Of a stretch of 64,000 nucleotides of DNA, positions 12,301 through 37,855 are shown piece by piece. The translations under genes and the position numbers were made by a program. Origin of the DNA: Bacteroidota bacterium (GTDB lineage Bacteria > Bacteroidota > Bacteroidia > 2-12-FULL-35-15); contig CANJYB010000004.1 in NCBI GenBank assembly GCA_947479085.1, forward strand, positions 124,001-188,000, read 5' to 3'. The notes below the pieces were generated by a model, which was not told where the DNA came from, ran no database searches, and was given only the letters and a program-made list of their open reading frames with translations. The stretch's first letter is position 1. The number at the start of each line of letters is the position of its first letter.

Positions 12301-13679
12301 TAATGAGTGTGAAAACCATATCGGGTACGTATGCGATGATAGACGGAATAATGCTGAACGGATATAACCAGAGTACACAAATGCTGGGTATGGATGCGCA
12401 TTTTAAAGCACCTACCACCGGGTTTATATTAGGTAGTCAGCAGGATATACGCCAACTGGCCATTGATAATTCGCAACACGATGAAGAACATCGAAATGAC
12501 GACTGGCTGGTGCATACCAGTTCGCTGAATACGCCTTATACTACCACTTCGAGCAGGAACCTGAACCTGAAAGCCAACCTGGAACCTATGCCGGATTTGA
12601 AAATAGAGTTGAGTGCCACACGTGCGCAATCGAGGGCTACTACCGAGTTCTTTAAATGGGGAGGAGCCAGCGATCCGCAATTTGTACATCAATCGCCTAC
12701 GGAATCGGGGAACTTCAGTATGTCGTTTTCGAGTTACCGAACTTCGTTTATGAATGGTGATGATGTGTTTGGAAATTTCCTGGAAGGAAGACAGGCGGTT
12801 TCTAACAAACTGGCGCTGGATAATCCGTATTCTAATTCGGCAAACTCAGTGGATGGTTATTCTGAAGGTTATAACTCAGTGTCGCAGGAGGTATTGATTC
12901 CGGCTTTCTTAGATGCTTATTCGGGTAAATTTTCTAAAAATGCAAGCACCAGCAGTTTCCCTAAAATACCTAAACCAAACTGGAGAGTGACCTACGATGG
13001 ATTATCGAAATTGAAAAAGGTGAAAAAACATTTCAAAACAGTTACCTTGAGTCATGCGTACCGCTCTAATTATAGTGTAGGTGGTTATAGTTCCAACTTA
13101 TTGTTTCATGATGAGTTTGGTGGATACACACATCAGAAAGACACGGTATCTACTGATCCTAACCCGAATTTTTATTCCGATAAATTAATAAATGCAGTAA
13201 CTATTTCGGAACAATGGAGCCCGCTGATAAAAATAGAGGTGATGATGAACAACAGCATTACCCTGAATTTTGAATACAAAAAAGACCGTAACGTTTCGCT
13301 GGGACTAACCAGTAAAACAGTGACCGAAGTGGCAGGACGCGAAATGATATTTGGGGCTGGCTATCGAATACAAGGCCTTACGCTTGGTAAACAGCTGTTG
13401 ATAAAAGGAAAACCTATAAAGGCTGACTTGGTGCTGAAAGGAGATTTATCGTTCCGGAAAAACATTACTACCATCAGGCGGATAGTGGAAGGTGTTAGTC
13501 AGCCTACAGGTGGTACCAATATTATTTCTATTAAGGTTTCAGCCGATTATCAGATAAGCACTACGGTGAGTATTCGTTTGTTTTACGACCATATTATCAA
13601 CAAACCGGTTATTTCTTCGTCTTTCCCTACCACCAATACCAATGCGGGAATCAGTTTGAGGTTAACTTTATCTAACTAA
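6321..13679 (+). CDS. sprA: SprA (Sov), outer-membrane translocon of the type IX secretion system
   Basis: SprA is the giant 36-strand beta-barrel through which T9SS cargo crosses the outer membrane; it is also needed for gliding in gliding species. The 2452 residues match the family's length. The protein begins with a TTG codon and an evident signal peptide (roughly residues 1-27, ending SSNA). Family stretches include VSPYNHAENIDDYDPL, VKGYWSARAHADSK, GGNTVDIRPNGSAELIF, the plug-like ADLGTLSLSG region, and GRAETWITPKYNPLDPD near residue 1635. A Gly/Lys/Gln-rich linker lies around residues 1950-1980. Five T9SS cargo genes and a T9SS plug gene lie elsewhere in the window. The gene ends just before repeat block 1. 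Confidence 0.97.
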   Translation: MNKSVAKFIVVGLASIVLLTFIVSSNAKVSPYNHAENIDDYDPLVVVDTPITPITLHYNFDDQSTGDPLNYPNGGGLMLNNPSNIHTNVEYDPVTGQYITTQTMGGINYRPPTYLESEEYQDYMFKKQVKGYWSARAHADSKNAANGSKIPKLQVGGEIFDRIFGGNTVDIRPNGSAELIFAYNATKTDNPALPVKQRKIHTFDFNEKIQLNVIGKIGDKLKLTASYNTESTFDYENQMKLEYTGYEDEIIKKIEAGNVSMPLSGSLITGSQTLFGVKTQLQFGRLTVTSILSQQKGKKSEVESAGGAQVTKYEIAGDNYEANKHFFLAQYFRDHYNEALAGLPFINSQINITRMEVWVSNTNNVVQDIRSVVGFSELGESAAHIPASQTYVHPYPQNLPNGNAGIPDNRQNDLYQNLTHLGLYPANRFDPTDSTLRVINYTVSGINSKFNHTLQQSAQFELLNAKKLQPSEYTFNPKLGFISLNQQLNPDQVLCVAYEYTYNGQVYHVGDFSENAFAPKALFVKLLKSTTTNTRAPLWNLMMKNVYSIGSYQINAADFKLDVFYTNSKTGTDINYLPVSNCQTNVVSKPLIQVLSFDKLNSQNDQTPDGQYDFIDGVTINANTGRIIFPVVQPFGDYLQSRFSASCDPFEAGKYVFHQLYDSTRVQAQQIPSLNRFKIKGSYKSAGGSEISLGAPNVPQGSVTVTAGGVKLTENVDYTVDYTLGRVKVINEGILNSGAPIKVSLESNSLFAVQQKTLMGTHLDFKINKDFSIGGTIMNLKERPLTKKVNIGDEPINNTIWGLDGNYRTDAPFLTRLIDKLPFLSTKEMSTITASAEYAYLIPGHNKAIGKNGNAYIDDFEGSTSTIDLRSQGAWNLASTPQGQPILFPETAPTRLDTSVVSGYNRARLAWYVIDPMFLRADGNTPTGITSTVMSNNFVREVPETEVFPNKQSPNGVPVNISTLDMAYYPHERGPYNYDLPNGKPGVSSGLELDGSLKNSDKRWGGAMRAISSNDFEAANIDYIQFWVMDPFNADNPAGSWNTTGNLYFNLGNVSEDILHDNYKSAENALPAPSANVPTISTAWGIVPNTQPLINAFNSDPADRPYQDVGLDGLSNVTETNFFNTYLNQVNNYSAAAYQNILSDPSADDYHYFRGDDYDNAVTLTRERYKKFNGLEGNSAISSGSYPTAASTLPNVEDINHDNNLSTVESYYQYHIGLKPSDFAGGVGTNYITNVLETTGQNIKDGTTKPIKWYQFKIPIRSPELKVGAIENFQSIRFIRMFFKDVDENILLRFARLELVRDEWRKYGFDLLSPGLYIPNDDDLTLFDVGAVNIEENGSKQPVNYVLPPNIDREINAASANLTQLNEQAMSLTVCNLADGKARAAYKNTDLDVRNYHTLKMYIHGEASANTASHLNDNDLDVFVRLGTDYTDNYYEYAIPLQVTPPGSYTNTETDQYKVWPSANEMILEFAKLLDVKQNRNAKLNGSTVTLNTEYSELDGTRTITIKGNPTISEIRTIMIGIRNPKKLAPGGNDDGLSKCAQVWVNELRLTDFDQKGGWAANARITAKLADLGTLSLSGSTYTPGFGSLENKVDQRKRETMRQYDVSSSLELGKFLPKDAGIHIPMYIGRAETWITPKYNPLDPDLELIPQFKEMDKHDKDSLKSIVQDYTKRNSLNFTNVKKDKGKNSKKSHIYDISNFALSYSYTQIFKRNVNVEYNDQKNYRGGLMYSFSPAPKNIKPFAKTAFLQSNYLALIRDINFYLKPSNVGFSTDLIRSFGTAKDRNTTGGDILILPTYNKQFNMNRNYTLKWDLTKALKFDFTANNLARIFEPAGDIDTKEKKDTILTNLMNLGRTSQYNHQVNLNYTIPINKIPYLDFTSASVKYTGTYTWQHSPLYDNKYYTNPISGEVLPVHVDTLGNTIQNSRNIQWSGQLNMTTLYNRVPYFKKINTKGGGKNQQDNKGGGKAQDQNPNDTTKQKKTEPHGLGLVFARLIMSVKTISGTYAMIDGIMLNGYNQSTQMLGMDAHFKAPTTGFILGSQQDIRQLAIDNSQHDEEHRNDDWLVHTSSLNTPYTTTSSRNLNLKANLEPMPDLKIELSATRAQSRATTEFFKWGGASDPQFVHQSPTESGNFSMSFSSYRTSFMNGDDVFGNFLEGRQAVSNKLALDNPYSNSANSVDGYSEGYNSVSQEVLIPAFLDAYSGKFSKNASTSSFPKIPKPNWRVTYDGLSKLKKVKKHFKTVTLSHAYRSNYSVGGYSSNLLFHDEFGGYTHQKDTVSTDPNPNFYSDKLINAVTISEQWSPLIKIEVMMNNSITLNFEYKKDRNVSLGLTSKTVTEVAGREMIFGAGYRIQGLTLGKQLLIKGKPIKADLVLKGDLSFRKNITTIRRIVEGVSQPTGGTNIISIKVSADYQISTTVSIRLFYDHIINKPVISSSFPTTNTNAGISLRLTLSN

Positions 13680-13717: not shown

Positions 13718-13876
13718 CACTGCAAAGTTATTTTGCGGAGCAGAAATATTGGTTTGTGGTCTTTGGGGTGATATTGCTGCAAAGTGCTTTTGGCAGACCT
13801 ATATTTTGGAGGTACTTGCACAGGATAATGAAAATGGCACAGGAAAAATAAACCTGCGTATACCGGAATGATGGAA

Positions 13877-14002
13877 CCGGACCGAATAATGATAAGAACG
13901 GATACAATAATGATGGAAAAGGATGGGATAATGAAGCGAACGGAAGGGATAATGAAGGAAGCGGATGGGATAATGAAAGGAACGGATGGTGTAATGATAC
14001 GT
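13877..14002. repeat. Repeat block 1a: six degenerate 21-bp tandem units
   Basis: Six head-to-tail units of exactly 21 bp begin at 13877, 13898, 13919, 13940, 13961 and 13982. The shared core is GGATGGGATAATGA with variable ends. A partial unit precedes at about 13863. Because 21 is a multiple of three, several frames stay open and spell heptad-repeat pseudo-proteins, but none has a start, composition or context like a gene. Part of the 588-bp gene-free gap between sprA and the acyl-CoA dehydrogenase gene. Confidence 0.85.
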
Positions 14003-14090
14003 TTTCGTCAAAAAGTAACGTTTCCGTCAAAAAGTAACGTTTTCGTTCAAAAGTAACATTTCCGTCCGAAAGTAACGTTTTCGTTCAAGC
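14000..14090. repeat. Repeat block 1b: five degenerate 19-bp tandem units
   Basis: Directly after block 1a come units at 14000, 14019, 14038, 14057 and a last partial one at 14076. Their consensus is CGTTTTCGTCAAAAAGTAA with C/T and A/C substitutions. The switch from 21-bp to 19-bp period is abrupt. Nothing else is seen from 14091 to 14203 except AT-rich sequence. Confidence 0.85.
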
Positions 14091-15490: not shown

Positions 15491-16645
15491 TTACTTCGTT
15501 CTGTTTTCTTTGGTAAGCATATCATACATCTGCTCAATAAACCCGTATCCGCCTTTATTCAGGTTCACTTCGTTAAACAGGATAAGGATAAAATCGCGGT
15601 TCAGGGTCTGTTCTTTCAGGTTCAGTTTGCTTACATCATTATCAATATCGTTATTGCTAGGTTTCCATGTTATTTGCTTATTATAATACCAAAACGAAGT
15701 TTTTGGACTAAATTCGTGTTCAATATATTCATACGAATAAAGCCAGGATTCTACATAGCTATCTCCCACAATCAATACATTCGGTTTTGTTTTGGTTGAA
15801 TCCTCTTTAAAGACAATGTTCGGATAATACATAGTATAGGAAGGAATGTCGCGAAGCAAATCCATCGCTTTTCCAATATCCGCATCCGATCCTCTTGGCG
15901 CTGTTGTTTCTTCTCCGCCATCCGAATAGTATTCAGGCATGTCAATGTTCCTCAACTTTTCCATATACTTAATTAAAGTATCAGCAGCCAGGGTGGAACC
16001 ATACAAACTCCAATGAACACCGCATCGTGTTGCCAGTGGATGTTTAACGGAGTTTTTTATTTTCAGAAAATAGTCAACAAAGTCTATAAAATGGATGTTT
16101 TGCTTTTTAAATTGATAAACATAGGCATCGTAATTACTTCTTGTTTTTTTAGTAACATCATATTTCGAAGAAATAAATTCCGGCATCAGTTTGGGTTTGC
16201 AAGGTGCGATGGCAAACAGTAAATCAACATTGCGTTTCTTCAATTCATCCTGCACGTATTTAAGCTTTCTTGCTTTCTCACTGATTTCATTCTCTCCAAC
16301 AAAATCTTTTCCAAGGTAGGCCTCAATATGCCCGCCACCAAACAGGTTTTGGTCTTTGCCCAATTCCACCGCACTCACTTTTACTTCATCAAACAAAGAA
16401 TAACCAATTTGATTTCGTAACCGGACCAGGAAAGGATGAAGGTTCATTTGCTGTTCATTGTATGTCATTGCGCTGTCCTGGTATTTTCCGCTCAGCCAGT
16501 TGCTTTTTGTAAAGGTGGGTTTTGGAATAACATAAATAGCTCCTTCCAGCATTTGGCTATTTATGTATTTAAAATACGTTTGAATAATTTCGCCACAGCA
16601 AACAAGGAAGAATAAAACAAAGAAAATGTGCTTTATTGTTTTCAT
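15491..16645 (-). CDS. AlgX/AlgJ-like SGNH-fold polysaccharide O-acetylation protein (pair 1)
   Basis: Likely acts outside the cytoplasmic membrane to pass acetyl groups from the membrane MBOAT protein to a polysaccharide. The 384 residues begin with an uncleaved-looking hydrophobic anchor (residues 5-22). The SGNH hydrolase-like signatures of the AlgX/AlgJ family are visible: VGDSYVESW with the nucleophilic Ser near residue 293, and GVHWSLYG near residue 210 with the His. The gene starts 3 bp after the stop of the MBOAT gene (16649-18061), so the two form an operon. A paralogous pair lies at 19277-22061. The specific glycan substrate is not readable from sequence. Confidence 0.82.
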   Translation of the reverse strand: MKTIKHIFFVLFFLVCCGEIIQTYFKYINSQMLEGAIYVIPKPTFTKSNWLSGKYQDSAMTYNEQQMNLHPFLVRLRNQIGYSLFDEVKVSAVELGKDQNLFGGGHIEAYLGKDFVGENEISEKARKLKYVQDELKKRNVDLLFAIAPCKPKLMPEFISSKYDVTKKTRSNYDAYVYQFKKQNIHFIDFVDYFLKIKNSVKHPLATRCGVHWSLYGSTLAADTLIKYMEKLRNIDMPEYYSDGGEETTAPRGSDADIGKAMDLLRDIPSYTMYYPNIVFKEDSTKTKPNVLIVGDSYVESWLYSYEYIEHEFSPKTSFWYYNKQITWKPSNNDIDNDVSKLNLKEQTLNRDFILILFNEVNLNKGGYGFIEQMYDMLTKENRTK

Positions 16646-16648
16646 TCT

Positions 16649-18061
16649 TTAAAACCGGAAATAAATAAACGGATTAAAATCACTTGCGTTAATATCGCTG
16701 ATACAGATAACTAACAGCAACAATAATATAGTTCCCTGTGCAATCAGAAATGTTTTTTGCCAGTTAAGTTTTATGTTTTTAAAACTCCAATTTGTAATCG
16801 GGATAAAAGAAAAAACAGCAGCAATAATAAACACTGTCCAAAACCGTGTTGCAAAAACAGGCTGAAGAAACGATGAGGATGAAAAGGAAAACAATTTATG
16901 AATGTATTGAAAAGCAAAAGTAACATCGTCTGCCCGGAAAAACACCCAACCTGTCATTACAAAAAAGAAAGTGAGGATTATTTTAATCGGGGAAATAAAT
17001 TTCTCAGTCCATTTAATAAAAAACAAACGGTCCATAATTAATAGCACACCGTGATAAGCGCCCCATATAATAAAAGTCCAGGAAGCACCATGCCATAAAC
17101 CGGAAATCAAAAATACTATCCACAGGTTTAATAAGAGGCGCGATTTGGAAACTTTATTTCCCCCCAGAGGTATGTATAAATAATCTTTCATAAACCGACC
17201 AAGAGTGATGTGCCACCTGCGCCAAAACTCGGTAATGTTTTTGGATATATAAGGAAGATTAAAATTTTCCGGAAAAGTAAAACCCATCATTTTAGCCAAA
17301 CCTATTGCCATATCTGAATATCCGGAGAAGTCGAAATAAATCTGGAAGGTATAGGCCAGTATCCCAATCCAGGCAGTGGGAGTGGACATATCATTAATAT
17401 GCAATGCAAATACAGAGTTGGCAGCACTTCCCAGCGGATTGGCAATGAGTACTTTTTTTGACAATCCTTTTACAAAACGAAACATGCCTTCCAACCTATT
17501 ATCAATAGTATAGGCGTTTTCACGATTTATTATCTGGTCAGCTATCTCATTGAACCGAACAATGGGTCCTGCAATCTGATGAGGAAACATGATGATGTAT
17601 AAAACATAATCTGTAAATTTATTTAATGGTTGGTGAACTCTCCTGTAAGCATCAATGGCATAAGTAAGCTTGTGGAAGGTGATGAAAGAAATTCCGATAG
17701 GTAACACTATTTCTGTCCAGTGCACTTCGTTTATTCCCATTCCATGAAGGACAAGATTTACGTTTTCTATAAAAAAATTAGCATACTTGAAATAACCAAG
17801 CAAACCTATATTAAGAACAACAGAAATGAAAAGCCAATGTTTACTTGATTTCCCTTGTGTTTTATATATCTGCTTAACAAGAAAAAAATCAATAAGAAGA
17901 GAAACAAATAAAACAAAAATAAATTCAGGTGCTCCCCATGCGTAAAAGAAAATACTCCCAACTAAAGCAACAAGATTTCTGAGTTGATTAGGAGCAAGAT
18001 AATAAGCTAAAAAGAAAAGGGGTAAAAAAGAAAGTATAAAAAAGTTGTTGCTAAAAACCAT
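16649..18061 (-). CDS. MBOAT-family O-acyltransferase, AlgI-like (pair 1)
   Basis: Multi-pass membrane protein (470 residues) that would move acetyl groups across the membrane for polysaccharide acetylation. The MBOAT core is clear: LPIGISFITFHKLTY, YSDMAIGLAKMMGF, NITEFWRRWHITLGRFMKDY and GLWHGASWTFIIWGAYHG near residue 325 with the conserved His. The first 40 residues, LAYYLAPNQLRNLVALVGSI, are also typical of AlgI. It is transcribed with the AlgX-like gene that follows after 3 bp. The second copy in the window (20631-22061) is clearly homologous along its length. The 5' end faces the divergent gene at 18126. Confidence 0.92.
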   Translation of the reverse strand: MVFSNNFFILSFLPLFFLAYYLAPNQLRNLVALVGSIFFYAWGAPEFIFVLFVSLLIDFFLVKQIYKTQGKSSKHWLFISVVLNIGLLGYFKYANFFIENVNLVLHGMGINEVHWTEIVLPIGISFITFHKLTYAIDAYRRVHQPLNKFTDYVLYIIMFPHQIAGPIVRFNEIADQIINRENAYTIDNRLEGMFRFVKGLSKKVLIANPLGSAANSVFALHINDMSTPTAWIGILAYTFQIYFDFSGYSDMAIGLAKMMGFTFPENFNLPYISKNITEFWRRWHITLGRFMKDYLYIPLGGNKVSKSRLLLNLWIVFLISGLWHGASWTFIIWGAYHGVLLIMDRLFFIKWTEKFISPIKIILTFFFVMTGWVFFRADDVTFAFQYIHKLFSFSSSSFLQPVFATRFWTVFIIAAVFSFIPITNWSFKNIKLNWQKTFLIAQGTILLLLLVICISDINASDFNPFIYFRF

Positions 18062-18125
18062 TCAGTTGCTTGTTTCGGAGGTCAAATATATTAATTTTAC
18101 AGCATTAAAAATAAGGCATTTCAAA

Positions 18126-18731
18126 TTGACCGATACTATTGTTCCTCATACTAAAAGCAAATCATCCTTTCAATTTCTAAGAGTGGTGGTGTTGCTGATT
18201 CTTATTTTATACATTATTACAAGGATAATGCTTTTTCTGGGCTTATTTATGGAAGAAATTAATTGTTCTGCAGAAAAAACAATTTCAAAAGAAAACAAAG
18301 AATGCCTTGTTTCAGATAATGGTTATGAGTTTGATAATGCAAATGGAAGAACGGATGAAAAAGCTTTGGAAAGTAAATATTCAATAAAACTTACTCCGGA
18401 TAATCAATATGGAATGTCGATGACATTAGCTGTCCCAAAAGGCGGAGAAGAATATGAAGCATCTGTCTGGTGTTTTGAAAATGCAATTTCTGCGGATTCT
18501 TCCGGCTGGCCTTATTTAGTTGTTTCCGTTGGAAATCAGTTCTGGAAAGGGGTGACAAATTTTTCAGAAAAGAAAAACAGTTGGGGAAAACTTCATTTTA
18601 AAGTTATTGTCCCTCATGGAATATATAAAGATCCGCTTGTAATATATTGCTGGAATAGTACAAAGAATATTGTTTACTTCGATAACATGACCATCAAAAG
18701 AGAAAACTACCTGAAGTTTTTTAAATGGTAA
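18126..18731 (+). CDS. Membrane-anchored protein with a jelly-roll-like (carbohydrate-binding-like) module
   Basis: I do not recognise a named family. A hydrophobic segment at residues 20-40 (VVVLLILILYIITRIMLFLG) would anchor the protein, leaving a single beta-rich domain outside. That domain ends NSWGKLHF...VIYCWNSTKNIVYFDNMTIK, the same pattern found twice in the protein at 24704-26458 and once in that at 26494-27015, so it probably binds the same surface glycan. The start is uncertain. The open frame reaches a TTG at 18045 but that overlaps the divergent MBOAT start; I prefer the TTG at 18126. It is the only plus-strand gene inside the polysaccharide locus. Confidence 0.6.
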   Translation: MTDTIVPHTKSKSSFQFLRVVVLLILILYIITRIMLFLGLFMEEINCSAEKTISKENKECLVSDNGYEFDNANGRTDEKALESKYSIKLTPDNQYGMSMTLAVPKGGEEYEASVWCFENAISADSSGWPYLVVSVGNQFWKGVTNFSEKKNSWGKLHFKVIVPHGIYKDPLVIYCWNSTKNIVYFDNMTIKRENYLKFFKW

Positions 18732-18738
18732 AAATAGT

Positions 18739-19203
18739 TTAATCCTTTTTATTATGCACCACCCCGTACTTAATACGATACCAGATACGTTCGTGCCAAT
18801 AGTAAACTAAGATTTTTACAAACAATTCTGCAATTACTACCTTTGTTGCCATTGTCGTCATATCAGAGTGGTTTTTATTAAGAAATAAAGCCAATCCAAA
18901 TGTAACAAATGACCCCAGAATTCTCCATGTTACAGATTTAGCAATGTGGCGAACCCGCGAAACAATATCAAAATCAAAATTAATATGGTACCAAATACGT
19001 TCATGAACTAAATAGAGGACCATTTTAAAAAAGAATTCACCAATTGCAATTCCGGATGCAATGTCTGTAGCGTTTTCTTCTTTTTGAAAAATAATAAGAA
19101 CCAATAAGAAAGTAGTTACAAAACTAAACACACGCCATGTAATTGCTTTAGCAATATGCCGTTTATATAAAATGACTGGTTTGTTTATATTACTGTTTGG
19201 CAT
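18739..19203 (-). CDS. Membrane protein with two tandem DUF2061 domains
   Basis: The 154 residues contain two copies of the DUF2061 unit: residues 14-75 (AKAITWRVFSFVTTFLL ... EFFFKMVLYLVHERIWY) and residues 86-147 (AKSVTWRILGSFVTFGLA ... ELFVKILVYYWHERIWY). Each has two predicted membrane helices and ends in HERIWY. DUF2061 proteins have no settled function; in Bacteroidota the domain often sits beside sulfate-assimilation genes, which is not the case here. The gene sits between the two acetylation pairs and points the same way. Confidence 0.85.
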   Translation of the reverse strand: MPNSNINKPVILYKRHIAKAITWRVFSFVTTFLLVLIIFQKEENATDIASGIAIGEFFFKMVLYLVHERIWYHINFDFDIVSRVRHIAKSVTWRILGSFVTFGLALFLNKNHSDMTTMATKVVIAELFVKILVYYWHERIWYRIKYGVVHNKKD

Positions 19204-19276
19204 TTTTAATCAGGTTATTCAAATAAATAAAGTTTTCAAATGTATGTTATTTTTAATTAAGCAACTCTGTGGAGTA

Positions 19277-20626
19277 TTAATTGTTTATTTTTTCCTTAAG
19301 TATTCTTTCTTTCTCATTATAACACCAAATGGCGGCATTAATAAATTCATCCGTTTGCGAAATGCCTTTTTGTTTGGCATTATCAATAAGTTGTTTTTTC
19401 CACACTTTATTAGTGTTAATGTTTTTCATGGTTTCAAGAATAAATAATTTGTATTCCTTTTGTTTAAGAATATAGTAAGCTTTGTTTTTAGGTGAATAAA
19501 GCTCATAAGCCTGATCAATAAATCCAAAAGGAAAGGCTGCAAGGGAAGCATCAGTTGCTAATAATAAAACAACATCCCTTTTTTCTATTTCTTTTTTTAA
19601 ACGAAATACTTTATCATTTTTGTCAGAAGATTCCCCATTATTGTAGTTCCAATAGCTCCACCCGGAAAAAACACTATCTACAATATTTGTGGCCACAATG
19701 TTACTGAAGTAACTATCAGATATGGCGAGTAGATTTGGCTTAACTGAATTAGAATCGGAAGAGTAAGTCAAATTCAAATAAGCCATTTTATAAAAAGGTA
19801 ATTCACTAAAAACATTTAATAAACTTCCTTCATCCTTATCTGTTCGTATAAGCGTATCACCTAATTTTATTTTATTTATTCCAAAATTGGTTAACCTGAT
19901 ATTTTTGATTTGTTCAATTTTTTTTGCAATAGTATCAATGGCCAGGTAACAGGCATATTGCCCCCAGTGTACACCTATTTGTGAATAGATTGGAAATTTT
20001 GTTTTGTCCTTTAAAGAAATAAAATAATTACGCAAATCTATAAAATTCAAATCTGTTTTTTTTAAGGCATTGATATAGCATTGATAATTATTGCTGTCTT
20101 TCGAAGAAAATTCATTCAATTTGTCAGGAATAAATTCAGGAAAATAACTTGCCTTGCCGGGAGCAAAAGCAAAAAGCACTTCTATGTTTTTTTTCTTTAA
20201 TTCATTTTTAACCACTCTGGCCTTTTCTATTTGCAATTCAATTCTTTCTTTGCCAATAAAGTCCCTTCCTGTATATCCATCTATGTACCCTTTATCATAG
20301 AGATAGCCATTCTTACCAATTATTACTGTTTGAAATTTTGAAATATTATACAGGGAGTAATTAATCTGGCATTGTAGTTTCACAAACCAATCGTGAAACC
20401 CAAGATTTTCATTTATTGCCTTTTCAAAATTCTGTTGAAACATTCCGGTTTTCCATGTTTCCTTTTTAAATTCAGGAAAAGTTGCTACATCAAAAAAACC
20501 ATTTAAGGGTTTTTCTTTAATCAAATCAAATTGCTTTTGAAGAAAGGGAATAAATAAGGAAAGAAGAAAAACTAAAAAAATAACATATTTTAATTTATCA
20601 GAAGTGGTTTTATTCATTGCATCCAT
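19277..20626 (-). CDS. AlgX/AlgJ-like SGNH-fold polysaccharide O-acetylation protein (pair 2)
   Basis: Paralogue of the protein at 15491-16645 with the same role by inference. After a hydrophobic anchor (about residues 12-30) it has GKNGYLYDKGYIDGYTGRDF, FAFAPGKASYFPEF, IGVHWGQYACYLAID (His near residue 219) and ISDSYFSNI near residue 301, where the usual Gly-Asp-Ser is Ser-Asp-Ser. The frame extends upstream to 20674, inside the MBOAT gene; the ATG at 20626, 4 bp after that gene's stop, mirrors the spacing in pair 1 and is preferred (449 residues). A C-terminal tail of about 60 residues, rich in Lys/Asn/Glu, is absent from the pair 1 protein. Confidence 0.8.
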   Translation of the reverse strand: MDAMNKTTSDKLKYVIFLVFLLSLFIPFLQKQFDLIKEKPLNGFFDVATFPEFKKETWKTGMFQQNFEKAINENLGFHDWFVKLQCQINYSLYNISKFQTVIIGKNGYLYDKGYIDGYTGRDFIGKERIELQIEKARVVKNELKKKNIEVLFAFAPGKASYFPEFIPDKLNEFSSKDSNNYQCYINALKKTDLNFIDLRNYFISLKDKTKFPIYSQIGVHWGQYACYLAIDTIAKKIEQIKNIRLTNFGINKIKLGDTLIRTDKDEGSLLNVFSELPFYKMAYLNLTYSSDSNSVKPNLLAISDSYFSNIVATNIVDSVFSGWSYWNYNNGESSDKNDKVFRLKKEIEKRDVVLLLATDASLAAFPFGFIDQAYELYSPKNKAYYILKQKEYKLFILETMKNINTNKVWKKQLIDNAKQKGISQTDEFINAAIWCYNEKERILKEKINN

Positions 20627-20630
20627 CTGC

Positions 20631-22061
20631 TTAAAATTTATAATAAATAAATGGATTAAAATCGTTACTAACAATAGAGCTTGCGCATATAACCATTAAA
20701 GCATAACAGCATATACCGAAAACAATTGTTTTCCTATTTGTTAATGAAAGATTGAACAGGTTTTCCTGGAATAAGGTAAACCTTTTAAGTATACCACCAA
20801 AGGATAAAAGAATAGCTATTCCCAAAATGACATAAAAATCATTAAGAATATACGGGCTTTGTGAATTCGAAAAATTGAAGGAAAACATTTTTTGAATTAT
20901 TGCATTTGCGGTTGGTAAATCAGCTGTTCTGAAATATACCCACCCAATTACAACAATGATATATGTAATAACAATGCTTGGAATACGACCAACTGATTTA
21001 TAAAAATTTAAAAGGAAAATCCGGTCAGCTATCAAAAAGAAGCCATGGAAAGCCCCCCAGATAATAAAGTTCAAGGATGCCCCGTGCCACAATCCGGATA
21101 ATAAGAATACTATCCATAAATTGAGATTCAAACGGGATTTCGATTTTACCTTATTTCCGCCTAATGGAATATAAAGATAGTCGCGCATCCACCTGCCAAG
21201 GGTTATATGCCATCTTCTCCAAAAATCGGTAATACTTTCGGCTATATATGGATTATTAAAATTTTCAGGAAACTTAAATCCAATCATCCTGGCAATACCA
21301 ATGGCCATGTCCGAATAACCTGAAAAATCGAAATAAATCTGGAACGAATAAGCAATCATTCCAAGCCAAACCAAAGGAGTATTTAATGTGGAAATATCAT
21401 TACTGAATATTTTATCCACTTCTGCTCCCAAAACATTTGCTATCAATACTTTTTTGGAAAGTCCTATAACAAATCGAAACAACCCTAATAATTTATTATT
21501 TATTGTTTCATGGTTTTTCCGGTCAATGATCTGGTCAGCAATTTCATTAAATCGTACAATGGGTCCCGCAATCAATTCGGGGAACAGAAGTATAAATAAT
21601 CCATAGTCCGTTATTTTAATAAAAGGGGCATGTTCGTTTCTATATACGTCAATGCAGTAACTTAATTTTTTGAAAGTAAAAAAGGAAATGCCTATAGGCA
21701 AAGCTACCTCCGCAAAATTTAGCGGATGAATATGAACGGATGCAAAAAACGAATTAACATTTTCAACAAAAAAATTAAAGTATTTAAAATATGATAAGAG
21801 ACCAAGATTTAATAGTACAGAAAGAGAGAGTAGCTGCTTCCTTCTTTTTTCTGAAGTTGCCTGGTATATTTTCTTTACGATAAAAAAATCTAATATTATA
21901 GAACCTAAGACAACAAAAATAAAAACGGGGGCACCCCAATAAAAAAACAGAATGCTGGAAAGTAAAATGAAATAATTTTTAAAGGCCTTTGGTAAAGAAT
22001 AATAAATAACAAGGAAAGCAGGGAAGAAATAAAATAGGAATAGACTACTGCTGAATACCAT
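20631..22061 (-). CDS. MBOAT-family O-acyltransferase, AlgI-like (pair 2)
   Basis: Membrane acyltransferase of 476 residues, homologous to pair 1. Signatures: LPIGISFFTFKKLSYCID, DFSGYSDMAIGIARMIGF, SITDFWRRWHITLGRWMRDY, and GLWHGASLNFIIWGAFHG near residue 325 with the conserved His. It starts 3 bp after the stop of the lipoprotein gene at 22065-22703 and is followed 4 bp later by its AlgX-like partner. It therefore sits in a run of closely spaced minus-strand genes that begins with the module lipoprotein at 27015. Confidence 0.92.
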   Translation of the reverse strand: MVFSSSLFLFYFFPAFLVIYYSLPKAFKNYFILLSSILFFYWGAPVFIFVVLGSIILDFFIVKKIYQATSEKRRKQLLSLSVLLNLGLLSYFKYFNFFVENVNSFFASVHIHPLNFAEVALPIGISFFTFKKLSYCIDVYRNEHAPFIKITDYGLFILLFPELIAGPIVRFNEIADQIIDRKNHETINNKLLGLFRFVIGLSKKVLIANVLGAEVDKIFSNDISTLNTPLVWLGMIAYSFQIYFDFSGYSDMAIGIARMIGFKFPENFNNPYIAESITDFWRRWHITLGRWMRDYLYIPLGGNKVKSKSRLNLNLWIVFLLSGLWHGASLNFIIWGAFHGFFLIADRIFLLNFYKSVGRIPSIVITYIIVVIGWVYFRTADLPTANAIIQKMFSFNFSNSQSPYILNDFYVILGIAILLSFGGILKRFTLFQENLFNLSLTNRKTIVFGICCYALMVICASSIVSNDFNPFIYYKF

Positions 22062-22064
22062 AAG

Positions 22065-22703
22065 TTATTGAGTTTGCCCTGCAAGAATTTTTCTGTTCGG
22101 TGTTCGATTTAAAGCAAATTCTTTAATTGTTAAATTTGATCCAGATCTTGATATTAAGATCCAACCATAATGATAATTGCCATTTCGTTTTATTTTAAAC
22201 CCAACGTAACTATCACCGTATGGTCCATTATATGAGGGTCCCCAAAACACTATAGATTTGATTGTTGCGGAAGTGTGATAGCGAAGATTGCTGTTAATAG
22301 CATCATTAATATGTAAAAAATTGAGTACAGTTAAATTTACTCCAAACTGTGTATCATAGTAATTTAATGTTGCAATAGAGTCTATTGAATTTATCATATT
22401 TAAGCCACTTTGATAAAAATAATTTGATAAAGGATTTGATGCACTTTGCCATTGATAATAATGACTAACACTCAAAGTAATATCATTAATGCCGTCATTA
22501 TCAAGATCTATCTGAATAGAAGCAGTTGAATCATTTGGATTAGGAATTCCTGAAAAGGGATAATAGGAACTAACAGATGTTATTGTTGTATCTGGAATAA
22601 TATTATAATAGTAAATGTCATCTACTTCTAGGTGGGATTTTCGGCAAGACAAGAAGGAGAAAACAATGCAAAACGAAAAAGAAATTTTTAAGATTATTTT
22701 CAT
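22065..22703 (-). CDS. Lipoprotein of unknown function in the polysaccharide operon
   Basis: The 212 residues begin with a lipoprotein signal ending FSFLSC (Cys near residue 20). The mature part contains IQIDLDNDGINDITLSV, an Asp/Asn-rich calcium-loop-like stretch, followed by a beta-rich region with YVGFKIKRNGNYHYGWI. I do not recognise a named family. It is translationally close to the MBOAT gene of pair 2 (3 bp gap), so it is probably made together with the acetylation machinery at the cell surface. Confidence 0.75.
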   Translation of the reverse strand: MKIILKISFSFCIVFSFLSCRKSHLEVDDIYYYNIIPDTTITSVSSYYPFSGIPNPNDSTASIQIDLDNDGINDITLSVSHYYQWQSASNPLSNYFYQSGLNMINSIDSIATLNYYDTQFGVNLTVLNFLHINDAINSNLRYHTSATIKSIVFWGPSYNGPYGDSYVGFKIKRNGNYHYGWILISRSGSNLTIKEFALNRTPNRKILAGQTQ

Positions 22704-22756
22704 TGAGTTTGTTTCTTAATGCAAAATTATTAGCTAACAAAAGTAAAATAAAATAT

Positions 22757-24700
22757 TTACTCTATCGTTAAATCATAAATCTCTCCCGGAATATCATTCG
22801 CAGGGAAAGGAATATTATCCTGTGCATAAGGTGTTCCCGGCCACCATTTGGTATTATGATACTCCTGTGTAATAATTAAAAGCATCTGGTTATTTGCAAT
22901 AGATGTTATCTTATCATTCATGTAACCTACTTCTCTCATTTTATCAGGTGATGGTCCTATACGCCAGATAATTTCAGTTGGTCTCCAATCAATTTCGAAA
23001 TAGTAAAACTTACCGGCAAATAATTCATCATCGGTTTCTTCCTTTTTCTCGGTAAGGGCTCTGTAATTCTGGTCCCAACGGTGTGCATAATAAGTTTGCC
23101 CTTTATAATCTACAGGGTTGCATCCAATTCCGAAATCCTTAGGTTCGCTGCATGCCATATCCCAATTGGTGCAGGCAACTGTTATTTTATCATCCGTGTT
23201 TAAAATTTCATCCGGCAATTTTACATTCCAGCTATTTATATTTTTATTATTGTCATTCGGGTTTTTATAAACAGGTGGAAAAGTATTGTCTGGACAATAA
23301 GGAGGGGTCTTTAAGATTTCAAAATCTATTTCAGTATAATCAACTGCAGGTACTCTTTTATCAGTACTACCGCCCCAATAGGTGGCCATATACCCATTTT
23401 TATTGCAATTTCTGCGGAAGTTCCAGTCTCCGCCTCCTTGGGTAATCAGCCAGATGGCATTTGTAAGACCATTCCATACATTGTTTTTATTCAGCAGTTC
23501 GGTCATTTTAATTTTTACCCGAAACTTACCATACGTTAATCCGTGTCGGGTAATAATACCAACACTTTCTTTTTTCCATTCTCCGTAAGTTGTTCCGGGA
23601 TTCTTAATAATTACCTTTTTTTCTTTTGCGTCAGAAAACACCGTTTGACATGGATGCTTGGCGGTCTGAATAATCGTTGGAATTAATTCATCTTTGGTGT
23701 AAAAACTTTTATTCCAATTGTAATCCATTTTTGAATAATTGTCTTTCAACACATCAGCCACCACCGGAATATTATCCATTTTTGTAGAAATATCCACATA
23801 GTTGATGAATTGCTGTAGTGGAGCATTCTTAAAAAGGTTGCTATCCTGTCCGCATGTGGCACAAAAGAAAGATTTGTCATAATCCTTTCCTCCATAAACA
23901 TTATCATTAACGTAAATACCATTTCCTAAATTCGGTTGTGCTATTACTTTTAAAGTGCCTGAAGATTTGGTGGCGATGGAATTCTTTAATTGTTTTCCTT
24001 CACCAAAAAGGTAATAGTAATAGGGGTTAGCGAAGTGTTCATTATTCTTTTTATGGATGTCCTGGATATATGCAGGAATATTTTTTAAATCATTTTCTGA
24101 AACCACCACCAATAGAAAACTATATTTCCCAACCCTTGGATTCCTTTGCCAGCGATTATTAATTCCATTTTTTATATACCTTTCTTCATTCCGGGGGTTG
24201 CCAATAATTCGGAAATTACCCTGAATTTTATGAAAGTTGTTATCAGCAGTTAAACTAATTTCTTTAAATAATGTGGATGTGTTTTCCCAACTGCCATAAA
24301 AATTCTCTTCTGCATATTGGTGTTCTTTATTTGTTGAGGAATCTAATTCAGGAAACTTATAGGTTTCGTTTTGGTAGTATAATTTGTAAAAGAACTTTTG
24401 GTTGGAAGATGTATTGTTTTTTATTTCAAATTCAAATGAAAATAATCCATCCTTTTGTTGTTTTACAGTTGGTAGCACGAAACCGCCATTTGCGTTATCA
24501 TAATCAATAAAAATAGTTTTGTTTTCAGCACTATCCTTTTGCCAGTTTTCAAGAGGATTAAAATTCTGTAAAGTAAAATCTTCACATTTTAGGGAAGAGC
24601 CATCTGATGAAGTATTATTATTGCAGGAATAACTGATGACAATAGCAACCAGTATGATTACTAACCTTTGTGTAAATTTTAAAATAGATAGTTTATTCAT
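22757..24700 (-). CDS. GH16-like (laminarinase/carrageenase superfamily) lipoprotein
   Basis: Predicted surface glycan hydrolase or transglycosylase of 647 residues. A lipoprotein signal ends SYSC (Cys near residue 26). Residues 35-330 form a less familiar beta-rich region. From about residue 370 the fold looks like GH16: YGKFRVKIKM, AIWLITQGGGDW, then YTEIDFEIL near residue 455, which fits the GH16 E-x-D-x-E catalytic signature, and later YFEIDWRPTEIIWRI. The Cys-rich stretch in between (CPDNTF, MACSEPKDFGIGC) is unusual for the family. It begins 3 bp after the stop of 24704-26458. Substrate unknown; an inactive glycan-binding role is possible but the three acidic residues are intact. Confidence 0.78.
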   Translation of the reverse strand: MNKLSILKFTQRLVIILVAIVISYSCNNNTSSDGSSLKCEDFTLQNFNPLENWQKDSAENKTIFIDYDNANGGFVLPTVKQQKDGLFSFEFEIKNNTSSNQKFFYKLYYQNETYKFPELDSSTNKEHQYAEENFYGSWENTSTLFKEISLTADNNFHKIQGNFRIIGNPRNEERYIKNGINNRWQRNPRVGKYSFLLVVVSENDLKNIPAYIQDIHKKNNEHFANPYYYYLFGEGKQLKNSIATKSSGTLKVIAQPNLGNGIYVNDNVYGGKDYDKSFFCATCGQDSNLFKNAPLQQFINYVDISTKMDNIPVVADVLKDNYSKMDYNWNKSFYTKDELIPTIIQTAKHPCQTVFSDAKEKKVIIKNPGTTYGEWKKESVGIITRHGLTYGKFRVKIKMTELLNKNNVWNGLTNAIWLITQGGGDWNFRRNCNKNGYMATYWGGSTDKRVPAVDYTEIDFEILKTPPYCPDNTFPPVYKNPNDNNKNINSWNVKLPDEILNTDDKITVACTNWDMACSEPKDFGIGCNPVDYKGQTYYAHRWDQNYRALTEKKEETDDELFAGKFYYFEIDWRPTEIIWRIGPSPDKMREVGYMNDKITSIANNQMLLIITQEYHNTKWWPGTPYAQDNIPFPANDIPGEIYDLTIE

Positions 24701-24703
24701 TAT

Positions 24704-26458
24704 TTACTTGTTTTCAATTTTGTATAAACCTATGCTATTGGGCAAACTTGTATTACTTTCCATTTGATTACAATGTTTTCCATTAAAATCTGCATCAGAA
24801 CAATTGCAACTAATAACAATTAAAGTTGACTGATTGGAACTGATAAATCTACCTGAAATGATTTTTGTAAACTCATAGTATTTTGGATTGTAGTCATTGG
24901 AATAACCTTTGAAATCAATATTACCTAAAATAACATAACCACCTCTTTCTTCCTGTACTAACTTCAGATCAAATCTCCAGTCCATATTTAACTTTACTAT
25001 TTCCGATTTATTATCGCCATAATAATCTCCTGAAAAAGTAATGTCAGTAGGTTTGAAGAAAGTAAAGTCATGAATTTCTGAGTTTTTTTTAATTTTTAAT
25101 AAACTATCCACCGACAAAACTTTTCCCTTCACTTTTGTAAATTCATTTGTTGTTGATGAGAAAGAAAACAGTTCTGCTTTGCCATCATGAATACAAATAA
25201 TTTCGTCTAAATTACTTTTATCTTTAATAAAGTCGCCTACTATAAATTCATCATTGGGAGTAAAACCCGATAAGCTACTATAGTTAAAGTTTTGTTTTGA
25301 AAAATAAATGGTTCGAAATGGAGGTTTGTTTTTTTGTGGAGAGAATTTTTTTTCATAGATACTGTTTGCATCAATTGTTGAGACATCTCCTTTTCTATCG
25401 GCACCTTCCCCATATACAACTTCCATATCATCAATAAGTAAGTCCGTTCTCCCTTTGTTCCAAACATTCACCTGTATTTTATCTTCCAGTGAAATCTTTT
25501 CAGGAGGAACACTAAAGGAAGCATTTATTTTTGTCCATTGATTTTTAGGGAATGGTTTGTTCTCTGTACTTTTTCCATCCCAAAAAACACTTTCTCCTTT
25601 TGAATTTGTTATGGAAGCTGTCAATACAGCATTCGGTTTATCGGTCATCGGATAAACCCAAACACTTGCAGTTATTTTTTTTATTAATGAGGTAGAAACT
25701 TCCGTCATCTTTTTTACCACCAATGGTCCATACTCTCTTCCTCCTGTTAAATCACAAGCCATTTTACCGGAATGTGCAACAGTTTGTTTAATACTCTCCG
25801 TTCCAGTTAATCCTTCGTTACTTTCAAAATCATAAAGGAAATTACTTGTTGAGCTTTGTCCCACCGGAACGGGAATTCCCATTCCTTGATAGTTAACAGC
25901 AATATCATCTATATAAAATTCTTCTTTTGCTTTATTCCAGGGATAGAGTTTAATAATATAAGCAGGGTTGATAGTTTCTGGTTTAAGATTAAAAGTAAAA
26001 TGAAGATTCCTCCAGTTTTCTGTTTTATCACCATTCATTGGTTTGCTTTCCCAGTAGATGTTTTTTCCATCCTTATCTTCCACAGATAAAACATATACAG
26101 CCTCCACTTTCTTTTTTGCCCAGCATTTTACTTCAATGTCTATATTCTTCAAACCCTGATAACCCGGAATGGCATTCATCTCCTTATTTATTCCAAAGCC
26201 GTATTCAATAGAAGATTCTATTTTAAAACTTCTCTTTCCCGAAAATGCTTTTTCTGCAGAGACATTTTCCATAGACTCAAAGTCTATTTTTTCTGATAGC
26301 AAAGTGGTAAGCACAGCAGAATCTTTTCTGACAAGCTCTGCACCAGTATTAAATTTTTTAGCGTACTGGTGTCTTAAAAAAAGATAAGAGGATGTAAACC
26401 CACATATAACAAGGATTGAAAAAATAATAATTAGTTTCCTTACTTTCTTTTGTGGCAT
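24704..26458 (-). CDS. Membrane-anchored protein with two jelly-roll-like modules and an FG-GAP-like C-terminus
   Basis: A 584-residue protein with an N-terminal transmembrane anchor (residues 8-27). Two homologous beta modules follow, about residues 55-190 and 205-350. Each runs from an SGKRSFKI/SGKMACDL stretch to a W-x-x-L/I-x-x-x-F stretch and closes with a YIDDIAV or LIDDMEV strand. This is the pattern of carbohydrate-binding jelly-roll domains. The last third has GDFIKDKSNLDEIICIHDG and GDYYGDNKSEIVKLN, which resemble FG-GAP/VCBS calcium-loop repeats, and a Cys cluster (SCNCSDADFNGKHC). No named family recognised. It is in tandem with the GH16-like gene (3 bp gap), suggesting a partner in glycan handling. 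Confidence 0.72.
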   Translation of the reverse strand: MPQKKVRKLIIIFSILVICGFTSSYLFLRHQYAKKFNTGAELVRKDSAVLTTLLSEKIDFESMENVSAEKAFSGKRSFKIESSIEYGFGINKEMNAIPGYQGLKNIDIEVKCWAKKKVEAVYVLSVEDKDGKNIYWESKPMNGDKTENWRNLHFTFNLKPETINPAYIIKLYPWNKAKEEFYIDDIAVNYQGMGIPVPVGQSSTSNFLYDFESNEGLTGTESIKQTVAHSGKMACDLTGGREYGPLVVKKMTEVSTSLIKKITASVWVYPMTDKPNAVLTASITNSKGESVFWDGKSTENKPFPKNQWTKINASFSVPPEKISLEDKIQVNVWNKGRTDLLIDDMEVVYGEGADRKGDVSTIDANSIYEKKFSPQKNKPPFRTIYFSKQNFNYSSLSGFTPNDEFIVGDFIKDKSNLDEIICIHDGKAELFSFSSTTNEFTKVKGKVLSVDSLLKIKKNSEIHDFTFFKPTDITFSGDYYGDNKSEIVKLNMDWRFDLKLVQEERGGYVILGNIDFKGYSNDYNPKYYEFTKIISGRFISSNQSTLIVISCNCSDADFNGKHCNQMESNTSLPNSIGLYKIENK

Positions 26459-26493
26459 TTGTCTGGTGTTTATTCTTTACTAAAGAAAAAGAA

Positions 26494-27015
26494 CTAATAA
26501 AATTCTACTTTAAAATCATCTAACAGTATTTCCTCTTTTGAAGTGTTCCAGACATAAAGTTTCATTATGCTCTTCGGGTCCAAGCCGGCAGGTATTTTAA
26601 ATGACTCAGAAATATGAACCCATTTGTTGTATTCGTTTACCTTTTCATCTGCCGGATTTCCTGCCCAAAAAAGATTTTTTGTATTATCTGGTTTATCAAT
26701 ACTTATTACTGTTTTAGCTGTAGCTTTTTTGTCTTTTAAAAATATCCAATACGAAAAAACTACCGAATCAATTTTTGTTTTGCTGATATCTTCCAATGAT
26801 TTTGAATATCCAAGACTATAAATAGTTGCTGAATCTATTACGGCCACCGTTCTGCCGGAATGTGCGTTGTCTGTTCTTTTTGATGGAAATGAAGTGGACC
26901 ATTCGCCAGGTTCTGCATTATTAGATGACATGATAACAGGTTCAGTTGCCTTTTTTTCTTCTGTTGAACAGCTTGAAACAATTAAAATGGTTGATAGTAA
27001 TAAAAGTGTACGCAT
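26494..27015 (-). CDS. Small lipoprotein with a single jelly-roll-like module
   Basis: The 173 residues open with a lipoprotein signal ending IVSSC. The rest is one module of the kind duplicated in the next gene downstream: NAHSGRTVAVID at its start, KWVHISESFKIPAGL in the middle and KLYVWNTSKEEILLDDFKV at the end. Likely a surface glycan-binding lipoprotein by inference. It lies 9 bp downstream of the ABC ATPase gene and 35 bp upstream of the two-module protein. Confidence 0.72.
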   Translation of the reverse strand: MRTLLLLSTILIVSSCSTEEKKATEPVIMSSNNAEPGEWSTSFPSKRTDNAHSGRTVAVIDSATIYSLGYSKSLEDISKTKIDSVVFSYWIFLKDKKATAKTVISIDKPDNTKNLFWAGNPADEKVNEYNKWVHISESFKIPAGLDPKSIMKLYVWNTSKEEILLDDFKVEFY

Positions 27016-27024
27016 AATTTATTT

Positions 27025-28827
27025 TTAGTTTAATATTAATTTTTTCTTTTTTATTGATTCTTTAATATCATCCAACTGCCCTTTAGGAATTGCATTGATT
27101 AATTTTTTAGTGTACTCCGTTTCCGGGTTATTGTAAATTCTATCAGCATCCCCCATTTCTTCTATTCTGCCCTTGTTCATTACTACCATTCTGTCGCTCA
27201 TAAATTTGACAACCGATAAATCATGGGAGATAAAGATATAGGTAAATTCGAATTCCTGTTTCAATTCATTCAGCAAATTTAATACTTGTGCCTGAACTGA
27301 CACATCTAATGCAGAAACAGATTCATCGCAAATGATAAACTTTGGTTTTAAAGCCAAAGCGCGGGCAATGCATACCCTTTGTCGTTGCCCACCCGAAAAC
27401 TCATGGGGATAACGATTAAATTGCGATTCATTCATATTTACCCGCTCCAGCAGTTCAATCACTCTTTTTTTTCTTTCTTCATCATTGGCTAATACTCCAT
27501 GCACCTTCATAGGTTCCATAATTGCATTCCCAATAGTTACCCTTGGGTTTAAGGAAGAGTAGGGATCCTGAAAAATAATCTGGATGTCTTTTCTCAACTT
27601 CATCATCTCGCCCGAACTGATGCGGGTAATATCCTTTCCGTTTAATATAATTGTTCCCGAAGTTGGTTCTATTAACCTTAGTATCGTTCTTCCCAATGTA
27701 GTTTTTCCGCAACCGGATTCACCTACCAGGCCAAGCGTTTCTCCCGGGAATACATCAAAACTTATATCATCCACTGCATTTACCCAACTGGTTGGTTTTC
27801 CAAACATCCCTTTATTAACAGGAAATGATGTCTTGATGTTCTTCAATTGAAGAACAGGTTCGCGCGCATATAAAATTTTATGGTTCGCTGCTCTTTCCTC
27901 TTTTGTAAGGACCAGCTTTTCGGTGATATCATTAACGGATTGTTTGTTTTCAATTATTTCCCCTGCTTCATTTGTTTTCATAAAATCAGCAACAGTTGGT
28001 AACCATTTTAATCTTTTATCCAATGGCGGGCGGCATGCCAAAAGACCCTTTGTATAAGGATGCTGAGGGTTAGAAAATATATCCAATACATTTCCCTGTT
28101 CCACCACTTTTCCTTTGTACATCACCAGCACTTTGTCTGCAAGTTCGGCTATTACCCCCAAATCGTGAGTGATAAACACAATTCCCATATCATTCTCTTT
28201 TTGCAATTCCTGCATTAAGTCGATGATGGTTGCCTGCACGGTTACATCCAAAGCAGTAGTAGGTTCATCTGCAATAAGAATGTTGGGGCTGCAACTCATA
28301 GCCATCGCAATCATTACCCTTTGTTTTTGTCCGCCCGATAATTGATGAGGATAGCTATTAAAAATAATCTCCGGCCGGGGCAATTGAACTTTTTTAAATA
28401 ACTCAATTGTTTTTTCTTTTGCTTCTTTTTTAGAAACGTGCTGATGAAGCAGTATGGCTTCCATTACCTGGTTTCCGCAGGTAAATACAGGGTTGAGAGA
28501 AGTCATTGGTTCCTGAAAAATCATTGCTATTTCATTGCCCCGCAATGTTCGCATTTCTTTTTCCGAAATTTTTGTTATATCTATTGTACCTTTTGTTTTG
28601 GAATGATAGATGATTTCACCACCGGTGATTTTTCCGGGAGGGTTTGGAATCAAACGCATGATGGACAAAGAAGTAACTGATTTTCCTGAACCGGATTCGC
28701 CCACTATTCCTATCGTTTCTCCGCAGGAAAGCGAAAAGGAAACATTATTAACAGCTTTTATCGTTTCGCTGTCGCTCCGAAACTCAGTAACCAGATTTTT
28801 TATTTCCAACAAAATTTCTTTTGCCAT
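27025..28827 (-). CDS. ABC transporter ATP-binding protein with two fused peptide-type ATPase domains (DppD-DppF-like)
   Basis: Energises uptake through an oligopeptide/dipeptide-type ABC importer. Two full nucleotide-binding domains are joined in 600 residues. The first has [20 protein letters not shown] and the Walker [10 protein letters not shown]. The second has [21 protein letters not shown] and CDESVSALD. Each is followed by the oligopeptide-type C-terminal extension ([29 protein letters not shown]). In many genomes the two ATPases are separate genes; fused forms are common in Bacteroidota. No permease or binding protein is in the window. It sits 6 bp after a lipoprotein gene and 9 bp before the module lipoprotein. 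Confidence 0.93.
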
Positions 28828-33569: not shown

Positions 33570-33570
33570 T

Positions 33571-34953: not shown

Positions 34954-35032
34954 GGTTATTTATTCATTTAGTTAAAGCAAAAAGGAGGATTCTTTTGGGT
35001 AAAGATAGTTGGTTTTTCTTTTTCAGAAAACA

Positions 35033-35065
35033 AAAACTCCCCACATTTCTGTAAGGAGTTTTTTT
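35033..35065. terminator. Terminator-like hairpin, copy C
   Basis: CTCCCCAC and GTAAGGAG between A5 and T7, with the same two mismatches as copy A. On the minus strand it ends the cargo gene 35121-37529. Confidence 0.55.
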
Positions 35066-35084
35066 ACTTTAAAGTTACTTAGAT

Positions 35085-35117
35085 AAACCTTCAAGGTTTT
35101 TAAAACCTTGAAGGTTT
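35085..35117. repeat. 33-bp palindrome, copy C
   Basis: Same sequence as copies A and B, 4 bp past the stop of the cargo gene at 35121. Confidence 0.85.
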
Positions 35118-35120
35118 CTG

Positions 35121-37529: not shown

Positions 37530-37582
37530 GTTATTTTCTTTTAAATTCTCTGTAAAGCTACCTTTATTTTCCTGTTTCCAAC

Positions 37583-37614
37583 AAAAAAAATCCCGCTCTT
37601 TTTCAAAAGCAGGA
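37583..37614 (-). terminator. Terminator-like hairpin in the leader of the Asp-box cargo gene
   Basis: On the minus strand TCCTGCT pairs with AGCGGGA (one G-T pair) around a 10-nt loop, followed directly by eight T. It lies 54 bp before the ATG at 37529. The upstream gene already has its own terminator at 37820-37850, so this one may act as an attenuator for the cargo gene. The rest of the 326-bp gap (37530-37855) shows no gene. Confidence 0.55.
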
Positions 37615-37850: not shown

Positions 37851-37855
37851 TATAA

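Follow-up and report, generated by a model that had tools for sequence, protein, structure and literature searches.

A GH16-fold lipoprotein family beside acylation pairs and jelly-roll modules in Bacteroidia: a candidate system for modifying a cell-surface glycan

Glycoside hydrolases of Bacteroidia are mostly read as digestive enzymes. In the alginate system, AlgI, AlgJ, AlgX and AlgL combine an MBOAT protein and AlgX-family SGNH proteins with a polymer-cutting enzyme. The clostridial ccsZABHI and Pseudomonas wss loci are described as grouping an MBOAT/SGNH acetylation pair with a glycoside hydrolase and a protein that binds carbohydrate, the hydrolase and the pair serving a single polymer (PMC7710045). 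In Sphingomonas the GH16 enzyme PrmQ and the acyltransferase PrmO are described as taking part in the making of the exopolysaccharide promonan, deletion of prmQ altering the matrix (PMC11340318). The same kinds of gene meet at positions 15,491 to 27,015 of a 64,000-nucleotide stretch of DNA (hereafter the window; contig CANJYB010000004.1, positions 124,001 to 188,000, assembly GCA_947479085.1) from a Bacteroidota bacterium of an uncultured Bacteroidia group, where two MBOAT/SGNH pairs stand with a GH16-like lipoprotein (GH16L) and three proteins sharing a jelly-roll module (modA, modB and modC). This cluster probably decorates and trims a cell-surface sugar coat with an uncatalogued enzyme family and known acetylation machinery. 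The original prediction for this DNA had named open reading frames that were all recovered in place, and had proposed that their products acetylate, bind and trim a surface polysaccharide; the observation was confirmed, and the interpretation is partly supported by what follows, acetylation, binding and trimming still being the most natural reading and the suggested part in gliding or biofilm growth a hypothetical one.

GH16L gave no Pfam match at E<0.1, PF00722 included, and PF00722 had zero matches in the source genome. Against NCBIfam a weak match far below the cut-off was obtained, and single-sequence and profile searches of GH16L against solved structures returned no matches. A model of middling quality was built with AlphaFold2 from 23 homologues (predicted local distance difference test score, pLDDT, 66.7; predicted template modelling score 0.69). 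Foldseek searches with this model returned GH16 enzymes as the top rows, with the beta-jelly-roll fold of GH16 (clan GH-B); VIA-align gave Z 14.8 and a root-mean-square deviation (rmsd) of 3.5 over 210 residues against 7kr6, and placed a Bacteroides ovatus GH16 from a polysaccharide utilization locus (PUL) among the nearest structures. The GH16 catalytic motif is ExDx(x)E, and the corresponding EIDFE of GH16L has E457, I458, D459 and E461 in 21 of 21 aligned rows and F460 in 20 of them, leaving an invariant EIDxE as the family motif; the lipobox cysteine C26 is likewise kept in 21/21 rows. The GH16-like lipoprotein of the original prediction is thus upheld by fold, though not by a Pfam match. 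As modelled, GH16L would represent a GH16-fold family without a name in the Pfam and NCBIfam scans made here, and its best reading is a glycanase or transglycosylase lipoprotein, that activity being a prediction. GH16L was present in 21 of 59 near genomes (22 named loci) and, class-wide, in 55 of 395 Bacteroidia genomes belonging to 25 of 196 genera.

One domain is common to modA (one copy), modB (two copies) and modC (one copy), giving four copies in three proteins. Pfam CBM_4_9 was matched by modA and modB below its cut-off only, and a modB profile search against solved structures returned no matches. A profile of the module (A5) reached 4xup, the tandem CBM22 of Xyn10C, by sequence at E 1.2e-5; the modB model matched 4xup at E 6e-12 and the CBM22 structure 1dyo with Z 13.2 and rmsd 3.1 over 140 residues, in a beta-sandwich fold. 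The modules are therefore modelled as CBM22/CBM4_9-type, with glycan binding predicted. Structure prediction, proposed earlier as a check, gave GH16 and CBM22 folds and not unrelated ones. The claim of three proteins carrying one jelly-roll-like module held; details to be corrected are that modB has two modules and a C-terminal domain, and that modC lies on the plus strand with a transmembrane (TM) anchor.

The same module also ends membrane enzymes. Twenty-four module proteins in the compared loci had at least six predicted TM segments, and in 24/24 the module stood at the very C-terminus. In the counts below, "GT-C-like" stands for any protein that combines the module with at least six predicted TM segments, PMT_2 having been checked for a few only (L027:14891 matched Pfam PMT_2; L028:16316 gave no match). 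Two of the 12 PMT_2 matches in the source genome carry the module, both outside this locus. Other membrane proteins near GH16L (L028:13622-15589 and L027:16959-18773) have beta-trefoil-type parts instead, one with a Fascin match and the other with a ricin-B lectin match.

Both acylation pairs were recognized by Pfam, the two MBOAT partners at 1e-25 and 3.9e-33 and the two SGNH genes by ALGX (PF16822) at 2.2e-14 and 4.8e-10 (54.2 and 40.0 bits, cut-off 26.5). Pairwise figures were 54.6% over 478 aa for MBOAT1 and MBOAT2 and 31% over 381 aa for SGNH1 and SGNH2, the pairs having been predicted as homologous. An FxYxxF motif is described for MBOAT-SGNH pairs and bears the acyl-tyrosine intermediate in PatA (PMC12148441); every one of the 18 full-length MBOATs found at the loci, the window's two among them, kept the shuttle tyrosine of this motif and both conserved histidines. 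A single-sequence search with SGNH1 against solved structures returned no matches, and the SGNH profile (A4) retrieved PatB1, AlgJ and AlgX. The catalytic serine (GDS-type) and the Block V histidine are present in both window SGNHs, each in 44 of 45 rows. Where the Block V DxH would have its Asp, the two window proteins carry Gly, as do 43 of 45 Bacteroidia rows. Roughly 45 residues past Block V lies a DxD that is nearly invariant in the 45 rows (in SGNH2, the Gly is residue 209 and the DxD is D254 and D256). DxH is described as defining for the AlgX-family SGNHs, whose membership is taken here from the same source, and CE2 and SsEst are known examples of a Ser-His dyad that lacks this Asp (PMC9487903); loss of the Asp alone therefore does not mean that an SGNH is inactive. 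The possibility that the Block V Gly is peculiar to GH16L-linked SGNHs was rejected, Gly having been found in 20/20 further rows, 19 from GH16L-free stretches and one (L140) GH16L-linked.

The window's two MBOATs fall in separate well-supported clades of the MBOAT tree, from which an L053 open reading frame (317 aa, not an MBOAT), the double entry of one gene in L055/L056, and L054 were left out. By this placement they are not recent tandem copies. The GH16L-linked MBOATs are spread over several clades, comprising pair 1 with its kin, pair 2 with its kin, a group of families f27 and f41, and single rows. Well-supported branches force at least two changes of the GH16L-linkage label, and the best tree has four; linkage of GH16L and MBOAT has therefore been gained or lost more than once, which suggests that the pairing arose repeatedly. 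Separate clades are compatible with different targets for the two pairs and are silent on sugar position.

Co-occurrence of GH16L with module proteins and with MBOAT/SGNH in other genomes, the other check proposed earlier, was found. Neighbourhoods within 8 kb were counted at 53 nonredundant GH16L loci, after removal of L032 and L090 (no GH16L called) and of the duplicates L046, L047, L084, L113 and L114. A standalone module protein was found at 30 loci, a GT-C-like protein with the module at 20, a GT2 at 17, an MBOAT at 17, an SGNH match at 20 and both of the last two at 16; the SGNH figure is an upper count, because the profile at 1e-5 also picks other proteins (632 aa in L030, 501 aa in L038). 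Across the genomes, the module was matched in 49 of 55 with GH16L and in 163 of 340 others (p 3e-9, kinship ignored and the 395 genomes taken as one draw; the 49/55 here and the 30/55 given below for SGNH are hand tallies). Within the genus, the order RNaseH-like gene, lip182, ABC gene, modA/modB and GH16L is mostly kept, modB mostly standing directly upstream of GH16L, and downstream content varies between MBOAT/SGNH, GT2, GT-C-like with module, a STELLO-like glycosyltransferase (L043) and an MNT-HepT pair. The GT2 in relatives is Pfam Glycos_transf_2, its polyprenyl-phosphate type being suggested by sequence. MNT-HepT (NTP_transf_2 plus HepT-like) follows GH16L directly in L028 (12002-12641), L029, L031 and L033, and its presence in four relatives therefore marks the position as an insertion site; the 103- and 113-aa genes after GH16L had been considered as Arn-type flippases, which was rejected on their NTP_transf_2 and HepT-like identity. 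MBOAT followed by SGNH directly after GH16L also occurs in families f27 and f41. Two Bacteroidales relatives have a large secreted protein between SGNH and modB (1500 aa at L040:3574-8088; a 1488-aa open reading frame in L041), which judged by eye has a papain-type protease look.

No glycosyltransferase was seen inside 15491-27015, and no SusC/SusD was found among the ten Pfam-scanned proteins of the locus, no genome search aimed at SusC/SusD having been made. That part of the original prediction stands, and the conclusion drawn from it, that the locus is no normal PUL and no biosynthesis cluster either, is not supported as written: in relatives the core lies beside GT2 and module-tailed GT-C-like glycosyltransferases, which weakens "not a biosynthesis cluster", and two module-carrying GT-C proteins are encoded elsewhere in the source genome. 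Large genes upstream of GH16L in L105 and L108 were considered as SusC/SusD and dropped on their sequence ends, without a profile scan. These neighbourhoods in relatives point to a role of the core in assembling and decorating glycans outside the cytoplasm.

We lean towards reading the locus as an extracytoplasmic modification system for a cell-surface glycan that the cell makes itself. GH16L, as a secreted lipoprotein, would use the GH16 retaining mechanism to cleave the glycan or to transglycosylate it, and modA, modB and modC would keep that glycan bound at the membranes by means of the module that elsewhere in the class tails GT-C glycosyltransferases. Each MBOAT would acylate the tyrosine of its own C-terminal FxYxxF at the outer face of the inner membrane, and the acyl group would then reach the glycan through the partner SGNH. 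What lies downstream of modB-GH16L would be an exchangeable decoration cassette, with acylation pairs here and glycosylation by GT2 and GT-C enzymes in relatives. The genes, folds, motifs and neighbourhoods are what was observed; the activities, the common substrate, the membrane location and the origin of the polymer in the cell itself are proposals built on them. A module common to GT-C-like enzymes and free lipoproteins, GH16L beside these or beside acylation pairs, and the recurring GT2 fit such a system outside the inner membrane. The close spacing of the genes and the base composition were also counted in favour, GC content in 2-kb windows being 0.31-0.34 at 18-26 kb versus 0.38-0.42 at 4-16 kb; surface-glycan genes are commonly low in GC.

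Several results weigh against this reading. No synthase, polymerase or exporter was identified within the locus, the source genome having one Poly_export match outside it. Nine of the 53 loci have no partner gene within 8 kb. The SGNH association is moderate (30/55 GH16L genomes versus 102/340 others, kinship ignored), and SGNH matches occur in 132/395 Bacteroidia genomes, pairs being common without GH16L; a search of 20 further SGNH-bearing stretches found no GH16L. AlgX, AlgJ and PatB1 have a Block V Asp that is missing from the SGNHs here, whose activity is therefore less than certain, and GH16L model residues 451-470, which hold EIDFE, average pLDDT 48-55 per ten-residue block. Some of the same figures would be expected if the genes stood together by chance in a surface-glycan island of variable content, GH16L and modB forming one unit and the acylation pairs acting on another target: the MBOAT and SGNH combination is absent within 8 kb from 37/53 loci and so is not obligatory, unrelated genes such as the MNT-HepT pair insert at the same spot, and the pairs are frequent on their own. 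This explanation is considered unlikely, because AlgX-like SGNHs are scarce (the source genome has only two Pfam ALGX matches, both in this locus, against eight MBOAT genes) and because several families (f1, f27 and f41) have MBOAT and SGNH next to GH16L, the MBOATs coming from separate clades.

The nearest structures also bring a catabolic reading into view, in which a surface system without SusC/D binds and cuts an external acetylated glycan by its lipoproteins and the SGNHs deacetylate it. PULs typically combine GH16 lipoproteins with binding proteins, and the structural neighbours include PUL enzymes, the Bacteroides ovatus GH16 being one; nonetheless the reading is improbable, given that no SusC/D is among the identified locus genes, that relatives repeatedly have GT-C-like and GT2 genes next to GH16L, and that MBOATs with the shuttle motif are described as exporting acyl groups (PMC12148441). 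Among solved structures the best relative of the SGNHs is Bacillus cereus PatB1, and the MBOAT-SGNH chemistry described for PatA/PatB-like pairs is the same (PMC12148441), so that the pairs might O-acetylate peptidoglycan; against this, the modules look like CBMs of the xylan and glucan type, and GH16 enzymes are known to act on glucans and galactans rather than on peptidoglycan. This target seems hardly probable.

Positions of the genes are collected below. On the minus strand the order is ABC ATPase, modA, modB, GH16L, orphan lipoprotein, MBOAT1, SGNH1, DUF2061 gene, MBOAT2 and SGNH2, followed by an acyl-CoA dehydrogenase-like gene (named from sequence), and plus-strand modC lies between the DUF2061 gene and MBOAT2. 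Intergenic gaps from the ABC ATPase to SGNH1, on one strand, are 9, 35, 3, 53, 3 and 4 bp and make a single, operon-like transcript of these genes likely; functionally the ABC ATPase is probably not part of the modification system. The unknown lipoprotein of the original prediction exists and had no BLAST match (E<=1e-3) in any other compared locus, and is therefore outside the conserved set; the listed genes were present, with the DUF2061 gene to be added. Open reading frames were called with a greedy script.

Table. Genes of the locus and its upstream neighbour (window positions; domain limits of GH16L in residues)
Feature	Positions	Strand	Description
Peptide-type ABC ATPase	27025..28827	-	named from sequence; syntenic upstream neighbour, 9 bp from modA
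modA	26494..27015	-	small lipoprotein, one CBM22/CBM4_9-type jelly-roll module (26500-26883); CBM_4_9 sub-threshold
modB	24704..26458	-	N-terminal TM anchor, modules 25889-26266 and 25412-25795, C-terminal beta domain
GH16L	22757..24700	-	lipoprotein; N-terminal conserved region ~35-245, GH16-fold domain ~250-647, EIDFE 457-461
Orphan lipoprotein	22065..22703	-	
MBOAT1	20631..22061	-	both conserved His and C-terminal FxYxxF acyl-shuttle motif
SGNH1, AlgX-like	19277..20626	-	ATG at 20626 favoured as start over TTG at 20674
DUF2061 membrane protein	18739..19203	-	Pfam; one relative (L022, 91%) also has it
modC	18045..18731	+	TM segment, then one module (18345-18698); start probably downstream of TTG 18045
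MBOAT2	16649..18061	-	both His and FxYxxF motif
SGNH2, AlgX-like	15491..16645	-	

Elsewhere in the window, a 2452-aa open reading frame lies at 6321-13679, about 2 kb past the locus, and its product is presumably SprA-like. Proteins with type IX secretion system (T9SS) sorting domains and a T9SS plug protein are encoded at 32142-41381 and beyond. Tandem repeats occupy 13867-14088 (21 bp unit, alternatively 42 or 63) and 55799-55978 (19 bp unit), and window-wide scans gave no Rfam matches and no tRNA.

No published description of this gene set was found by titles and abstract openings. The locus offers a handle on surface-glycan making in Bacteroidia, and ties a binding module that occurs free to the C-terminal tail of GT-C enzymes. 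The GH16-fold family turns up repeatedly beside acylation and GT-C machinery, so the neighbours should be checked before a GH16 label is read as meaning degradation. A bolder extension, possible but doubtful, is that GH16L founds a Bacteroidia-wide GH16 subfamily that builds glycans: it would be a lipoprotein endo-glycanase or transglycosylase on a GT-C-decorated surface polymer, recognized through the module common to glycosyltransferases and free lipoproteins, with acylation and glycosylation cassettes swapped downstream as a serotype-like switch, and SGNHs using a Ser-His dyad or another acid, perhaps the DxD at 254/256.

By analogy, the closest known plans would be the ccs/wss acetylated-cellulose and promonan loci. 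The ccs and wss loci hold a GT2 polymer synthase and the ccs enzyme is a GH5, whereas here there is no synthase, the enzyme is a GH16-fold lipoprotein, there are two pairs, and the modules are others. The wss hydrolase is a GH8. The alginate system has a lyase rather than a GH16 and includes a synthase, and the DxH acid of the AlgX family is Gly in the SGNHs of the window. GT-C enzymes with a C-terminal CBM are described in EmbA/B/C, AftD and the Citrobacter enzyme ORF12, where, as here, a beta-sandwich module ends a GT-C enzyme and the donor pathway is of the polyprenyl-phosphate type (PMC11127046, PMC7341804); unlike in the Emb-type enzymes, the Bacteroidia module family also occurs free, as lipoproteins beside GH16L, and the likeness is one of architecture, not a homology comparison. 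Promonan differs in being made by a full cluster with many glycosyltransferases and an acyltransferase described as AT3/OafA type (PMC11340318).

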